Shown: positions 5,286-24,930 of the stretch, piece after piece | How the letters are laid out: each line of letters starts with the position of its first letter | Position numbering within the stretch: position 1 is the stretch's first letter | Assembly: GCA_013140755.1 (NCBI GenBank) | Contig: JABFSF010000049.1 | Span: 1-50,341, forward strand | Direction of reading: 5' to 3' | DNA: 50,341 bases | Source: Methylotenera sp. | Lineage (GTDB): Bacteria; Pseudomonadota; Gammaproteobacteria; Burkholderiales; Methylophilaceae | Position numbers and translations under genes: made by a program | Notes under the pieces: generated by a model | What the model was told of the DNA's origin: nothing | What the model saw: only the letters and a program-made list of their open reading frames with translations | The model's database searches: none

Positions 5286-5780
5286 TTACCATGATTTCAA
5301 TACGATTTTCTCAACATCAACTTCTTGACAATCTTCATTGGTGCAGTGTGCAATTTGCTTCCATTCTGTTGGAAAGGGCATTTTGTTGACAGGTAAATCT
5401 GCACCATCTGTGGCAAATCCTAAAGTAAAAATGACAGCACCTTGATTTACTTTGAAGCCCTTGGTGCTTTCTGCAACAGATGTCATGATGTTGGCAACTT
5501 CTTTTGAAATGGCATCATCAGTATCTAGCCAAGCTTTAATTTTGCCATCTTCGCGCACGGCCATGACTAAAAATCCCCAACTTGGGTTTGCTGGTAAAGG
5601 AGCTAATTTTTTGTTGATATTGATTTCAACTTCTTTCATATATCGGTCCATCTCATCTACGCCATCCATTTTATTAAGGGCAATTTTTTTATCTTGCATC
5701 AAATAAATTTTTAAATATTCCGCATTAGCCGCATGGCTTAACAGTGGGAAAAGCATTAGCAATAAGGCAATCAATCGCAT
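5286..5780 (-). CDS. Secreted protein of unknown function
   Basis: A 164-residue protein with a clear signal peptide (MRLIALLLMLFPLLSHA, cleavage after Ala near 17-20). The mature part has no recognised domain. Two cysteines sit close together near the end (HCTNEDCQEVD), able to form a disulfide in the periplasm. It starts 55 bases after the stop of the serine protease on the same strand, so the two are probably co-transcribed. A role as partner, substrate or inhibitor of that protease is only a guess from position. Confidence 0.7.
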   Translation of the reverse strand: MRLIALLLMLFPLLSHAANAEYLKIYLMQDKKIALNKMDGVDEMDRYMKEVEININKKLAPLPANPSWGFLVMAVREDGKIKAWLDTDDAISKEVANIMTSVAESTKGFKVNQGAVIFTLGFATDGADLPVNKMPFPTEWKQIAHCTNEDCQEVDVEKIVLKSW

Positions 5781-5835
5781 TTTAAATCTCCTGAAATGTT
5801 GAAAAATAGAGCGTTAATTAAATTGATGAGTTGCA

Positions 5836-6846
5836 TCAACATGAAGCATCACATCCCACAAGCACACGATATTCATGGGCTAACTCTTGGCTGATATTAG
5901 CAATAGCAAGGTTGATTTCATGCATGGTGGCTTTATCACCCGCCACTTGAGCCAGCACCCCTAATCTAAACAATGCATCCGTGTTGCTACTATCTAACGT
6001 AACCGCTTGTTGATAGCTCGTTTTGGCTTCGTTTAATTTGTTAAGACTTTCTTGCGCAATGCCTTGCTCATACCACGCATCTGAGTTGCTGGGTTCTTTG
6101 GCAATCCACTCTTTAGCGACTTGTGCTAATTTAGGCCAATCTGCATTGATCTCAGGAATAGCCATTTGCATAAAAAAAGGTTTTTTATTGTCATCTTCTT
6201 CCCAAAATGCTTTGCCTGTAATAGGAAACTGGGTTTCAACAGGAAGTTTTTGTAAATCAGCCAGCCACTCAATGGGCAAAGAGTAAAAATAAGCGGGGCG
6301 ACCTGGGGTTTTAAACGTATTGATACCGAGTAAATTACCCTCTAAATCAAAAATGCCGCTACCACTTGCCCCCATTAAAAATTTTGCACTGCTTCTGATG
6401 ACTTTGCCGCCATCAAATGGATAACTAGCTTTAATTGTGCCCGCAGAGGTCAATGGATTAGGAACCCCGTTAGAGTGCCCAATGGCAAGCACTTCTTGCG
6501 TACGTTTAATTGCAGCAGCTTTGCCAATGGGCGCAGAGGTAAAGGGGAGGTTAGGTGCATTTACCAAACATAAATCATGCCATCGGTCAGCTTGCACTGA
6601 GGCAATCGCATAAGTATCTTCACCACGCGCAACCCATGGCTCTTTGGTGCTTCTAAAAATATGACAATTGGTAATCACCGTATCTTTTTCCACAACAACA
6701 CCAGAACCATAAGCCAAGCCACCACTGGCGTTATAACCTCTAATCATTACCACCGCTTGCAACGATTTAAGTATTTTGGCTTGATCAAAAGCAAATGCAG
6801 ATTGAATGTTCATAAACATTAAACTGAATATAATGAATGTACGCAT
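5836..6846 (-). CDS. Exported trypsin-like serine protease with C-terminal TPR repeats
   Basis: A 336-residue protein with a signal peptide (1-19, ending SAFA). The protease domain (about 30-200) shows a full triad: His62 in VITNCHIF, Asp91 in HDLCLVNAP, and Ser161 in LMGASGSGIFD, with GSGVVVEKD typical of DegP/S1C-type enzymes. No PDZ domain follows. Instead residues about 232-320 carry tetratricopeptide repeats (for example DAWYEQGIAQESLNKLNEAK), which usually bind other proteins. A pair of cysteines ends the chain (GCDASC). It probably acts in the periplasm. The combination of a degenerate S1C protease with TPR differs from DegP, DegQ and DegS. It leads a two-gene unit with the small secreted protein downstream. 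Confidence 0.83.
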   Translation of the reverse strand: MRTFIIFSLMFMNIQSAFAFDQAKILKSLQAVVMIRGYNASGGLAYGSGVVVEKDTVITNCHIFRSTKEPWVARGEDTYAIASVQADRWHDLCLVNAPNLPFTSAPIGKAAAIKRTQEVLAIGHSNGVPNPLTSAGTIKASYPFDGGKVIRSSAKFLMGASGSGIFDLEGNLLGINTFKTPGRPAYFYSLPIEWLADLQKLPVETQFPITGKAFWEEDDNKKPFFMQMAIPEINADWPKLAQVAKEWIAKEPSNSDAWYEQGIAQESLNKLNEAKTSYQQAVTLDSSNTDALFRLGVLAQVAGDKATMHEINLAIANISQELAHEYRVLVGCDASC

Positions 6847-21359: not shown

Positions 21360-22136
21360 CTACGCATTCACCTGCAAATAAATCGGCGAGAAAGCTTGTT
21401 GCTGCGTAATGCGAATCAAGCCCTCTTTTGCCAGCTCTAAAATGGCTAAAAAATTCACCACTAATTTTGCTAAACCGTCGTTCATCACATCAAACAACTG
21501 CGAAAACTCGACCAAACCATCCGCCTTTAAGCGACGTAAAATCTGGCTCATATGTTCGCGCACTGAAAGCTCGGCACGGCCAATTTTGTGGTGGCTATTC
21601 AGTTTTGCGCGTTTTAACACATTGCGCCACGCCTCTGCCAGCTCATCTAAGCTCACTTCAGGCGGTTTAATTTCACTGATATGCTGATAATAAGCAGCCG
21701 CTACGCTCAACTCTTCACCCACTTTTGGCAGCTCATCTAAACGCTGTGCGGCAAGTTTAATCGCTTCGTATTCCATCAAACGGCGCACCAACTCAGCACG
21801 CGGGTCATCCTCTTCAGCCACCTCTACGGGTTTTGGCAACAACATGCGCGATTTAATCTCAATTAACATCGCCGACATCAGCAAATAATCACCCGCCAAC
21901 TCTAGCTTAATCGCCTTCATTTTCTCCACATACACCATATACTGGCGCGTTAAATCCGCCATGGGAATATCCAGAATATCCAGATTATGCTTGCGAATCA
22001 GGTATAACAATAAATCAAGCGGGCCTTCAAACGACTCTAAATACACCTCCAGCGCATCAGGCGGAATGTATAAATCTTGCGGCAACTCTGAGAGCAGCTC
22101 GCCTTTGATTTTGATTTCTGATGTGGTGAGTAACAA
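21360..22136 (-). CDS. scpA: Segregation and condensation protein A
   Basis: A 258-residue kleisin that bridges SMC heads. The family core is unmistakable: LEVYLESFEGPLDLLLYLIR, followed by HNLDILDIPMADLTRQYM, and LLMSAMLIEIKSRMLLPKP. The start codon is TTG at 22136, supported by AAGG eight bases upstream, and no ATG occurs before residue 58. In relatives the gene usually follows trpS directly, so its upstream region here was probably altered when the restriction cassette entered. It is followed by scpB with overlapping ends. Confidence 0.95.
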   Translation of the reverse strand: MLLTTSEIKIKGELLSELPQDLYIPPDALEVYLESFEGPLDLLLYLIRKHNLDILDIPMADLTRQYMVYVEKMKAIKLELAGDYLLMSAMLIEIKSRMLLPKPVEVAEEDDPRAELVRRLMEYEAIKLAAQRLDELPKVGEELSVAAAYYQHISEIKPPEVSLDELAEAWRNVLKRAKLNSHHKIGRAELSVREHMSQILRRLKADGLVEFSQLFDVMNDGLAKLVVNFLAILELAKEGLIRITQQQAFSPIYLQVNA

Positions 22137-22153
22137 ATTAAAACCTTAATTAA

Positions 22154-22339
22154 ACAACCGATAATTTATTCGTTATTCCCGAAGAATCCGGCATCTACTT
22201 TAATTCTAAAAATGCAACTTTTCTAAAACATATCAAACACGATGCTCTGGAAGCAGCATGGATACTGGCTTGCAGAGGTATAAAAAATCCTCGACGTAAG
22301 AATCTAGCAAATTACACCGATTTTTTGCTCATAAAATGA
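22154..22339 (+). pseudogene. Orphan open frame, possible 3' remnant of an unknown gene
   Basis: A frame of 61 codons without ATG, GTG or TTG near its beginning runs from just after a stop at 22151 to TGA at 22337-22339, opposite to the genes on either side. Its composition looks protein-like (for example DALEAAWILACRGIKNPRRK near residues 30-49). It is too long to be comfortable as chance in AT-rich DNA, but not decisively so. I do not recognise the family. A likely reading is the tail of a gene cut off when the restriction cassette was inserted or rearranged. Confidence 0.3.
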
Positions 22340-22396
22340 CAACTGCAACCTGCTTTTCATAGGTAGGTGTAGAGAGTAACGAAACCCAGTGTTTTA

Positions 22397-22633
22397 CTAA
22401 GCAGATATACTGTCTTTAAGGCGTCTAGCAACCGCATATATATGATTAACATTTGGATTACCATAAAACTTTTTAGTCAAAGTAAATTGAGTGTTAGTGT
22501 ATTTTTCACCTAAAAAATCTTCAAACTCCCTCAATACATACTCTTCGTAAGACAGCCTTTCAGATTCCTCTAAATAATCAATAACCTTTAATAAAGCTGA
22601 GCGGTCAATATTGCTAGTATCAATTGCATTCAT
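22397..22633 (-). CDS. Small protein co-translated with the DpnI-like enzyme
   Basis: A 78-residue acidic-to-neutral protein with no signal peptide and no recognised domain; predicted to be mostly helical at the N-terminus (LLKVIDYLEESERLSYEEYV). Its ATG lies inside the end of the restriction gene (14 bases overlap), so translation is coupled. The pneumococcal DpnI cassette also carries a second gene of unknown role after the nuclease; equivalence is possible but I cannot see clear similarity. Functions such as modulation of the nuclease are guesses from position. Confidence 0.65.
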   Translation of the reverse strand: MNAIDTSNIDRSALLKVIDYLEESERLSYEEYVLREFEDFLGEKYTNTQFTLTKKFYGNPNVNHIYAVARRLKDSISA

Positions 22634-23402
22634 TTCTTAACTTCCTATAAACACCTTGAGAAATAAACTCTATCAACCCTTTATCTCTCAACACTTGTAA
22701 TTGCTGCCTAATTTTATCTTTAACATGCTTATTTTCTGGATGTTTAAATTGTAGTTGTGCCTCAAAAGCATAAACATCCGCTAACTTGAAGTTCACACTT
22801 TTGATTTTGTCTAAGCAATTCAAAATGTCTAATGTCCAACCTCTGGAGTTTAAAGCCGAATCTTTTAAAAAAAACGTTCTGCGCCAACTATCTAGAACCA
22901 TATCTTTGTTTTGCATAGTCGAGTTTTTAATAAAAAATATTTTTCCACTCTCTGGAATTTTTGTAATGTTAATATTACAACCAACCCAGCCAGCTCTTTT
23001 TGCCGCACTGCTTAATGGTTTTCTTTTTTCAATGATTTCAGGGGTGAAGAAATATCTTGGGATAATAGCAAAATTATTAACTGTCCAATTTTTTGGATTG
23101 TAAGTCAAAAAGAAAAAATTTGGATTATTGGCTGACAACACCCTCTCTATCATTGTGGAGTAAGCTCCATCAACAATCTTTGATGCAAAATTTCCATTTT
23201 TACTTTTTAATTCAAAGTCTTCGTCACAACTTCCACAATAAAAATCTGCTACAGGTTTATTATTTTCATACTCAAAAATTGATGGCGCGCCGCAGTTAGG
23301 GCAATATATATTTTCTTTAACCCAAGACTCCGTTAAAACTCTAGCAATTTGAGATTTACTTACGTAATCATTCGCTAAACCAATATTAAATTGCAAATCC
23401 AT
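22620..23402 (-). CDS. dpnC: DpnI-family methyl-dependent type II restriction endonuclease
   Basis: A 260-residue enzyme closely resembling DpnI, which cuts GATC only when the adenine is N6-methylated. Residues 34-59 hold four cysteines (CPNC at 34-37 and CGSC at 56-59) forming the zinc site. The PD-(D/E)xK nuclease shows Asp53 (PVADFYC), Glu64 and Lys66 (FELKSKNGNF). Further shared words are NPNFFFLTYNPKNW, RKPLSSAAKRAGWVGCNI and SRGWTLDILNCLDKI. The C-terminal winged helix (about 180-254) senses the methyl groups. The start follows GGAGG by 13 bases, embedded in the end of the truncated methyltransferase. DNA here is clearly more AT-rich than trpS and scpA, consistent with transfer. The host must leave its GATC sites unmethylated. 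Confidence 0.93.
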   Translation of the reverse strand: MDLQFNIGLANDYVSKSQIARVLTESWVKENIYCPNCGAPSIFEYENNKPVADFYCGSCDEDFELKSKNGNFASKIVDGAYSTMIERVLSANNPNFFFLTYNPKNWTVNNFAIIPRYFFTPEIIEKRKPLSSAAKRAGWVGCNINITKIPESGKIFFIKNSTMQNKDMVLDSWRRTFFLKDSALNSRGWTLDILNCLDKIKSVNFKLADVYAFEAQLQFKHPENKHVKDKIRQQLQVLRDKGLIEFISQGVYRKLRNECN

Positions 23403-23405
23403 AGA

Positions 23406-23735
23406 CTAATCCGCACCTCCGAATTTACCCCTCGTACCCTTATCAACCTTAACCATTTTTCCAGCATGACAACTAATCCCACCATTAAACAAAAAATAGG
23501 GAGGGTCTGCAAAAATCATATCAAACTTGCCGTTTGGAAATTTAGCTATCAAACTATCCATAAACTCCAAGCAATTGGCTTGATACAACCAAACGCCGTT
23601 TAAATCATCACGGTAAAATAACTTATTGGGGGAAAGTGCTGTCTGCCTAACGACTAAATCTGAAAATGGATCATCTCCAATGGTGATTTTTTCTTCTATT
23701 ACTGGATACTTAAGCATTACGTTACCATTACCCAT
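23406..23735 (-). pseudogene. Truncated beta-class adenine-N6 DNA methyltransferase (N-terminal stump)
   Basis: A 109-residue frame that holds only the N-terminal part of a beta-class amino-methyltransferase. The catalytic motif IV DPPY is at 77-80 in FDMIFADPPYFLFNGGISCH, wording like the DpnA/DpnII-type GATC enzymes, and similarity runs to about VDKG at 97-100. It then turns into unrelated residues and stops four bases before the DpnI-like gene. The target-recognition region and motif I (cofactor binding), which lie C-terminal in this class, are missing, so it cannot methylate DNA. Its ATG overlaps the trpS stop by eight bases; a second Met at residue 7 is also possible. Translation through it probably feeds the restriction gene. 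GATC specificity is inferred, not shown. Confidence 0.85.
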
Positions 23736-24930
23736 AGTTCAAGCCCATCGCATCGCGCACATCCCGCATCGTCTCTCTCGCCAACTTACGCGCTTTTTCG
23801 CAGCCTTCTGCCACAATATTTTTCACTAAAGTCGGGTCTTCAGCATATTGTGCGGCGCGTTCTTGAATCGGTTTGAGTTCTTTTAACACGCCTTCAATCA
23901 CAGGGCCTTTACACTCTATACAGCCAATCGCCGCATTTTTACAGCCGTTTTGCACCCATTGTTGGGTAGTTTCGTCTGAGTAAATTTCATGCAATTGCCA
24001 CACTGGGCACTTGGCTGGGTCGCCAGCATCTGTGCGGCGAATACGTGCGGGGTCGGTGGGCATGGTTTTGATTTTTTTGGCAATCGCGTCAGGCTCTTCA
24101 CGCAGGCTAATGGTGTTGTTGTATGACTTAGACATTTTTTGGCCATCTAAGCCTGGCATTTTTGACGCTGGGGTGAGCTTGTAATCTGGCTCAATTAAAA
24201 TCATTTTGCCACCGCCTTCAAGGTAGCCAAGCAAGCGCTCTTTATCGCCCATGCTCATGCCTTGTTGTTCTTCAATCATGGCACGTGCCGCTTCGAGGGC
24301 TTCTTCATCGCCACTTTGTTGATAGGCAGTGCGCATTTCTTCATATAGCGCACCACGTTTGCTGCCTAATTTTTTAATGGCAGCTTCAGCTTTTTCTTCA
24401 AAGCCTTTTTCTTTGCCGTAAATATGGTTAAAGCGGCGTGCGATTTCACGCGTAAACTCAATATGGGGGATTTGGTCTTCGCCCACGGGGACTTGCGTGG
24501 CTTTGTAAATGAGGATGTCAGCACTTTGTAGTAAGGGGTAACCCAAAAATCCGTAGGTAGATAAATCTTTACTGCTGAGTTTTTCTTGCTGATCTTTATA
24601 AGTGGGTACACGCTCTAGCCAGCTTAATGGCGTAATCATGCTCAACAAGGTATGTAGCTCTGCGTGTTCTGGCACGCGGCTTTGAATAAATATAGTCGCG
24701 TTAGCTGGGTCAACCCCTGCGGCGAGCCAGTCGATGACCATTTCCCACACGCTTTCTTCAATCACCTCAGGGGTGTCGTAATGAGTGGTTAGTGCGTGCC
24801 AATCTGCCACAAAAAATAAGCACTCGTGCTCGTGCTGTAAGCGTATCCAGTTTTTGAGTACGCCGTTGTAGTGACCTAGATGTAAATTGCCTGTGGGGCG
24901 CATCCCTGATAAAACGCGTTCAATTGCCAT
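23728..24930 (-). CDS. trpS: Tryptophanyl-tRNA synthetase
   Basis: A 400-residue class Ic synthetase charging tRNA-Trp. The HIGH-type motif is HLGH at 17-20 and the KMSKS loop sits at 265-269 (GQKMSKSYNN). Compared with the roughly 330-residue forms it has an insertion at about 165-245, typical for the longer variant found in betaproteobacteria. It follows the M50 protease by 58 bases on the same strand. In relatives scpA often comes next; here the restriction cassette separates them. Confidence 0.97.
   Translation of the reverse strand: MAIERVLSGMRPTGNLHLGHYNGVLKNWIRLQHEHECLFFVADWHALTTHYDTPEVIEESVWEMVIDWLAAGVDPANATIFIQSRVPEHAELHTLLSMITPLSWLERVPTYKDQQEKLSSKDLSTYGFLGYPLLQSADILIYKATQVPVGEDQIPHIEFTREIARRFNHIYGKEKGFEEKAEAAIKKLGSKRGALYEEMRTAYQQSGDEEALEAARAMIEEQQGMSMGDKERLLGYLEGGGKMILIEPDYKLTPASKMPGLDGQKMSKSYNNTISLREEPDAIAKKIKTMPTDPARIRRTDAGDPAKCPVWQLHEIYSDETTQQWVQNGCKNAAIGCIECKGPVIEGVLKELKPIQERAAQYAEDPTLVKNIVAEGCEKARKLARETMRDVRDAMGLNYG

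Follow-up and report, generated by a model that had tools for sequence, protein, structure and literature searches.

The window analysed here is a whole stretch of 50,341 nucleotides from Methylotenera sp. (Methylophilaceae; assembly GCA_013140755.1, contig JABFSF010000049.1). Between trpS and scpA it carries a methylase stump, a gene for a DpnI-family nuclease and a 78-aa ORF, which lie head to tail, all on the minus strand. The features of the locus are as follows.

23728-24930, minus strand: trpS, the left neighbour, upstream in the reading direction
23406-23735, minus strand: methylase stump of 109 codons, the N-terminal part and motif IV of a beta-class enzyme of DpnA type (GATC system, by association)
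23403-23435, minus strand: joint region, with the decayed methylase tail, the TAG and the switch from methylase homology to the DpnI start codon
22620-23402, minus strand: DpnI-family methyl-directed endonuclease (putative), 260 aa, catalytic domain and winged helix
22397-22633, minus strand: companion ORF of 78 aa, without a known family
22137-23727, strand not assigned: AT-rich inserted island of ~1.59 kb, the trpS-scpA interval
21360-22136, minus strand: the right neighbour, which we take to be scpA from the sequence-only reading of this DNA and general knowledge; placed by its position and by homologues adjoining trpS in relatives

The ORFs were confirmed at the positions claimed in that earlier reading, all on the minus strand, and so were an overlap with trpS and the AT-richness of the island: the first ATG of the stump overlaps the end of trpS by 8 bases, and the GC content is 0.34 in 22137-23727 vs 0.42 for the whole window. 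The true start of the stump is unsure, because a second in-frame start (M7) lies 18 bases on and agrees with the start of a related stump, L018. The ATG of the DpnI gene is found 3 bases past the TAG of the stump, and the 78-aa ORF overlaps the end of the DpnI gene by 14 bases. Stump and nuclease had been described as fused; they share a frame, but are separate genes, with one TAG and one codon between them.

trpS was searched for in 61 genomes, one of them the window's own, and loci were taken for the best 30 of the 61, that is, the window and 29 congeners. The scpA gene was in view downstream of trpS in 26 of the 29 congeners, with a gap of 41 bases or less in 15 of these 26 and of 169-1067 bases in 11; in the nearest congeners only 17-18 bases separate the two genes (17 in L095 and L106). 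Two of the 11 long gaps were examined and contain a 195-aa ORF (L096) and ORFs of 80 and 101 aa (L105). In this genus the trpS-scpA gap is prone to insertions, and the near contact of the two genes in 15 of 26 congeners argues that the island came in whole. The comparison of this interval proposed with the earlier reading gave no strain with a GATC cassette, a stump or a DpnI gene at trpS-scpA among the 29 congeners examined. The idea of a fossil swapped in place was therefore half right: replacement of a cassette is supported by the findings below, but a local swap is contradicted by the short gaps and by the occurrence of the same joint at other sites elsewhere. A stretch, AAGCCAGTATCCATGC.GCTT.CAG, is common to window positions ~22210-22300 and the L096 gap, and looks like a dispersed repeat.

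Origin of the methylase stump

The window stump gave no Pfam match over the cut-off. Its matches are to PADLOC MTase_II (E 2.5e-11), to the second methylase of plasmid pSRQ700 (DpnII-type; 59% over 39 aa) and to 21 intact methylases of ~300 aa (52-75% over the matched part), and these bear out the DpnA/DpnII-type kinship read from its preserved words. Motif IV is DPPYFL at residues 77-82. A near-invariant residue beside DPPY is changed in the window stump (S83F), and the neighbour of residue 83 is changed in the L018 stump (N84D). In beta-class methylases the target-recognition domain, motif X and motif I lie in the part that follows. The stump has neither the target-recognition part nor the SAM-binding motif I, its homology ending at codon 111, so that their absence, noticed earlier, holds; without the SAM-binding half the stump, judged from its sequence, cannot be a methylase. 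We considered that it might be one half of a split methylase, and rejected this since a search of its own genome with the intact enzyme L024 returned the stump and two paralogues at 28-30% and nothing else.

Relatives were collected with a two-row alignment (the window stump and the stump of genome G077) from genome_contigs, 84,980 species; the scan relied on two 7-residue patterns and is therefore not exhaustive. It gave 29 loci: four stumps (L018-L021), one longer cut (L023, 175 aa), 21 intact genes, and three that were set aside, L026 (frameshift), L045 (insert and stops) and L046 (a 22-aa match). Two further candidate stumps were rejected, L080 because it is a frameshifted full-length gene and L060 because the gene runs off the end of the available sequence. 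The stump had no match in phage records and none in a confirmed viral contig. In L045 (4990-5400), from a Thiomargarita MAG, the stump-family gene is broken by a short insert and by stops, and the ends of the insert form an inverted repeat (CTCACCTTACGCACC...GTGCGTAAGGTGAG).

The intact enzymes are PF01555-type, and one of them, L036, matches the CcrM and DpnA structures. Their gene neighbours point to the system from which the stump comes. A MutH/Sau3AI-type nuclease adjoins 8 of the 21 intact relatives (one was also compared with PDB) and DpnII adjoins one (L033), so that a GATC-type partner nuclease lies beside 9 of 21; a full-length PD-(D/E)XK enzyme of ~180 aa adjoins another nine and a cut-short copy of it one (L022), while no partner was identified for L031 and L035, for which 394 and 617 bases of downstream sequence were available. 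In the Methylococcales, L090 is a complete Dam-DpnA-DpnII operon, the DpnA of which is a member of the family (53% to the stump), and L081 has Dam, the PD-(D/E)XK enzyme and a DpnA-type gene together. By association, the origin of the stump in a GATC restriction-modification system thus appears well supported, and the GATC specificity that had been proposed for it is upheld in the same way, with MutH/Sau3AI-type nucleases, DpnII and Dam beside relatives and no other specificity indicated. The ~180-aa PD-(D/E)XK restriction enzyme (L036 1614-2150 and relatives) is paired with DpnA-type methylases in many phyla; no Pfam model scores it above the cut-off, and PADLOC gives no match.

The DpnI-family nuclease and its host

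The nuclease was correctly recognised as DpnI-like at the outset. Both domains of the family are complete in the window protein, with Pfam matches to PF06044 (E 5e-81, positions 1-182 of 183) and PF17726 (E 4e-33, positions 1-70 of 70), and the protein aligns over residues 1-255 with the DpnI of PDB 4esj (E 3e-94) and matches PADLOC mREase_II (E 2e-112). An excerpt of the structural work on DpnI assigns catalytic roles to Asp53, Glu64 and Lys66 and the reading of both methyl groups to Trp138 (PMC4117772). In the window protein D53, E64 and K66 are kept, and W139 aligns with the methyl-reading Trp138 after a one-residue insertion. Also kept are the four zinc cysteines, C34, C37, C56 and C59. 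We take the protein as a putative active Gm6ATC enzyme.

Such an enzyme would need a host without methylated GATC. In the host genome, which is 99.6% complete in 159 contigs, no Dam-family methylase (PF02086) was found over the cut-off and two matches lay below it; the window had no match to a Dam query at E 0.01, and the search with intact L024 found no second stump-type methylase in the host. Five PF01555 matches, four of them over the cut-off, are candidates for other adenine methylases. The absence of a Dam-family or stump-type methylase fits a DpnI that would be harmless to its own cell. Avoidance of GATC was tried as a sign of DpnI activity and rejected: the observed/expected ratio is 0.34 in the host sample, 0.15 and 0.23 in the congeners G035 and G010, and 0.84 in G011, and since it is low in G035 and G010, where no DpnI was found, avoidance does not discriminate. 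The host also has a 321-aa beta-class methylase that lies beside a possible partner ORF of 256 aa in G000 C13 (L001). The observed/expected ratio of CCGG is 0.04 in the window and the G000 stretches L124-L128 (150 kb), and 0.07, 0.00 and 0.03 in stretches of G043, G795 and G798, respectively, as against 0.4-0.6 in other congeners; this scarcity points to a separate, CCGG-directed restriction pressure.

The window DpnI is 69-70% identical to the DpnI of L020 and L021 but only 48-50% identical to those of L007-L009, which come from its own genus and family and have no stump within the flanks examined. The DpnI tree splits the window, L020 and L021 from L007-L009 with full support (100/100), and a distant Neisseria sequence groups on the stump side. 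Full-length DpnI was found in two genomes of a 311-genome sample of the order, and in both it is preceded by a stump. Among 150 relatives, the window genome included, a stump precedes one of five full-length DpnI genes, the window's own; the other four have no stump in the flanks examined, and no second genome combines the two. A scan of the genome collection with DpnI as sole query was insensitive, since it returned 0 matches although such loci exist. Carriage of the unit by a phage or plasmid was considered and rejected. Phage records gave one partial DpnI match and viral contigs five partial wH-like ones; hits in the plasmid collection were two chromosome-sized Neisseria records together with distant or partial relatives.

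Small genes also follow the stump-less DpnI genes of the family (L007 1181-1492, L008 1161-1496, L009 1044-1457). They differ from the follower in the window: two are ORFs of 103 and 111 aa that are related to each other, and the one in L009 is an ADP-ribosyltransferase-like protein (ART-PolyVal). Downstream of the DpnI gene in L009 there is also a short C-terminal remnant of DpnII (810-917; 47% over 36 aa), another trace of DpnII-to-DpnI replacement.

The joint and the nuclease slot behind it

In-frame homology to intact L024 (residues 6-111) reaches the DpnI start codon, crossing one TAG. Codons 1-100 of the stump are conserved and codons 101-109 decayed, and TRGKFGGAD, which makes up the last nine residues, is homologous to WDKSRGAEVN in relatives. 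A foreign tail was ruled out by codon alignment with intact methylases; because methylase homology continues in frame to residue 111, this tail is decayed rather than foreign. The truncation, placed earlier after about VDKG, lies at residue 111 of the methylase.

In two Methylococcales MAGs, L020 (G798) and L021 (G795), stump and DpnI are joined as in the window. The alignments are continuous across the joint, with DNA identities of 90.6% over 1137 bp between L020 and L021, 74.4% over 995 bp between the window and L020, and 74.2% over 1005 bp between the window and L021. At the L021 joint, where DpnI starts inside the stump frame, sequence is common to the methylase segment AATCATGAATTT and the DpnI start ATGAATTTGCAG. 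The L020 joint differs from it by one base, and its stump ends with a stop 3 codons after VHKG; the window is decayed around the joint. The flanks of L019, L020 and L021 have no similarity to one another by blastn. The same joint in distant relatives at other sites suggests that stump and DpnI move as a ready-made unit. Behind the DpnI gene of L020 lies a broken DpnII gene (aligned over residues 45-303 of 304, with a late start of the open frame), and this decayed gene behind the same joint gives direct support to the replacement of a DpnII-type cassette by DpnI, as proposed from the window alone.

The nuclease behind the stump is not always DpnI. L019 (G799, a genome rated 6% contaminated) is from a third species with the same genus code as L020 and L021, and is homologous to L021 up to the joint, after which it continues into an unrelated, nuclease-like protein of 248 aa (5323-6069) with a C-terminal match to PADLOC REase_II (E 5e-8) and no Pfam family. 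L019 and L021 share the small ORF (79% DNA identity) and a PD-(D/E)XK remnant (90%), but not the nuclease. In L018, a Methylophilaceae MAG (G077), the protein behind the stump is of DpnI_C-HNH type. The methylases of L018 and L019 end at or within two codons of the window's cut. In L023 an HNH protein related to that of L018 (53%), with the small ORF and the remnant, follows the longer methylase fragment that ends at codon 175, and G621 has a similar HNH protein without a stump. Alignment of these units shows a slot behind the stump that has taken up different nucleases.

Homologues of the 78-aa ORF were found behind the nuclease in L019, L021 and L023, accompanying three nuclease types. Among 369 genomes of the class the window's own was the only one. 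The ORF matched no Pfam, NCBIfam or PADLOC family, no PHROG below E 0.02, nothing convincing in PDB, and nothing in plasmids or a confirmed viral contig; no nuclease remnant was detected behind it in the window at E 1e-3 or 0.01.

Apparent selection on the stump and probable history of the unit

We consider it likely that the island is a DpnI-type defence unit, left by the replacement of a GATC cassette down to a stump, mobile as a block, and with the stump kept by selection. In a GATC restriction-modification cassette, the DpnI gene would have taken the place of the partner nuclease and of all but the 5' third of a DpnA-type methylase gene, joining, probably in a single event, at a short sequence common to the NHEF segment of the methylase and the DpnI start. 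The block of stump and nuclease, with or without the small ORF, would then have spread ready-made between methylotrophs and entered the trpS-scpA gap. The host has no detectable GATC methylase; in it the DpnI enzyme, judging from its family, would cut DNA that comes in with Gm6ATC, and the stump protein would most probably serve as a small accessory of the nuclease unit, its translation coupled to that of trpS and leading on into DpnI.

The view of the earlier reading, that DpnI took over from a DpnII-type cassette and left the stump as an inert relic now being lost, accounts for the decay of the tail past codon 100 in the window and its cut by a stop in L020, for the loss of the SAM-binding half, for the changed residues beside DPPY and for a fragment that is not predicted to fold alone. 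The pattern of substitutions makes such a plain fossil doubtful. After the joint had formed, the L020 and L021 stumps acquired 16 synonymous and 8 nonsynonymous changes in the codons up to VxKG, giving a dN/dS of 0.094 (0.14 for their DpnI genes); under neutrality ~19 of these 24 changes are expected to be nonsynonymous (p 4e-7). With a codon model, omega was 0.069 for five stumps (log-likelihood -993.9, vs -1082.5 with omega fixed at 1, kappa 2) and 0.039 for the three stumps before DpnI, the value for DpnI being 0.085. None of the five stumps has a stop or frameshift in codons 1-97. The stump has also been carried to several sites, and in the window genome there was no local swap, the corresponding sites of congeners being empty.

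The stump is thus apparently selected and not decaying, with L020/L021 as the one clean pair: purifying selection on the first ~100 codons is seen in that pair and would extend to the window genome. In a comparison meant to represent decay, L023 and its intact relative L024 have a dN/dS of 0.59 (5 synonymous, 12 nonsynonymous changes), which is compatible with neutrality (p 0.25) and differs from L020-L021 (p 0.028); since dN/dS is 0.10 for L022-L023 and omega 0.21 for L022, L023 and L024 together, the longer cut is only a soft contrast. AlphaFold gave a pLDDT of 43.9 for the stump alone, and block means of 64-91 at residues 21-80 for the same region within an intact enzyme (same 12 rows). From these models, either the fragment would need a partner or the evidence for selection misleads.

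It is unlikely that the units arose independently, the methylases of the family breaking repeatedly at one weak point where each time DpnI or another nuclease lands. The nearly identical ends of L018 and L019 before unrelated nucleases would agree with this, as would L023, which is cut elsewhere and has the same small ORF and remnant, and the stump-region tree, in which two of 26 inner branches are starred and the stumps are neither united nor separated. Against repeated breakage, the alignment of L020 with L021 runs unbroken through stump and DpnI, and synonymous divergence is equal in the two parts (0.37 and 0.34; p 0.86), suggesting that the block was one unit when they split. The window also aligns to both across the joint, so that one joint is the simpler account for the DpnI units. 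Measured from the window to L020 and L021, the stump has a somewhat larger synonymous divergence than DpnI (p 0.088 and 0.054), and the window stump may have had a history of its own. Taken from these alignments, the joint is of old date, mobile and probably of single origin, with an exchangeable nuclease slot.

That the stump is a translated leader, coupling into the nuclease gene with no protein function, is improbable. The tight packing from trpS through to DpnI and the DpnI start inside the L021 stump frame would suit a leader; for this an open frame suffices and nonsynonymous sites are free, whereas the 8 of 24 changes seen against ~19 expected suggest that selection acts on the stump peptide and not on the DNA or a bare leader.

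A more specific role for the peptide is quite improbable, namely that selection keeps the stump as a protein which renders methyl-directed nucleases harmless to their cell by pairing with, and so poisoning, incoming full-length DpnA-type methylases. Conservation of a fragment for which no fold is predicted in isolation would agree with dependence on such a partner. If so, a cell with DpnI, the wH-HNH or the 248-aa nuclease would spare its own chromosome when a GATC methylase enters, and stump, nuclease slot and small ORF would form a modular anti-methylase/nuclease unit.

Neisseria already provides a known case in which a DpnI gene has replaced a GATC methylase, which contradicts the earlier remark that such swaps are hardly seen outside streptococci. 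Excerpts of two reports describe the DpnI-like drg as replacing dam at leuS/dam, with a truncated methylase in several meningococcal strains, an AT-rich composition and a likeness to minimal mobile elements (PMC4269198, PMC516771). Like the window, that locus has a DpnI-family gene in the place of a GATC methylase with a truncated methylase; as excerpted, it differs in being fixed at leuS and in that the truncated gene is dam. In the window Dam itself is not interrupted by the DpnI gene. Here a DpnA-type gene is the truncated one and its 5' part runs on into DpnI; the joint occurs at varying sites, and the stump seems to be selected. The gonococcal locus L015 holds drg with a 46-residue C-terminal dam remnant, a broken DpnA-type gene and a broken PD-(D/E)XK gene. 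An intact methylase of the stump's type beside this DpnI, which would have spoken against the earlier reading, was not found in the loci collected, and N. gonorrhoeae has the broken one beside drg.

In the pneumococcus the same two enzyme types, DpnI and DpnII, exclude each other, according to an excerpted source (PMC3573125), and L020 likewise has DpnI before a decayed DpnII; unlike the pneumococcal cassettes, the unit does not alternate at a fixed locus, with no GATC cassette at trpS-scpA in 29 congeners. The winged-helix (wH) fusion endonucleases are presented in one report as m6A-dependent type IV systems, with adjacent methylases inactivated by frameshift in two genomes (PMC11037411). The proteins behind the L018 and L023 fragments match DpnI_C and HNH as these do, but a conserved methylase stump, a shared joint and a companion ORF are absent from that excerpted description. 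The DpnA enzymes of DpnII systems (the LlaDCHI-type of pSRQ700; PDB 5hek/5hfj) align with the stump in their N-terminal part; the stump differs in lacking the SAM-binding half and in having an N-terminal extension.

DpnI-type nucleases and GATC methylases cannot coexist, and the passage between the two states is hard to see. Here the joint is preserved, is older than a species split and is common to two orders of methylotrophs, so that the DNA itself records the switch. Should selection on the stump prove real, a methyl-directed nuclease unit would have retained a broken methylase as one of its working components. Because the slot accepts unrelated nucleases, the stump may also serve as a handle for finding new ones, by looking behind it.
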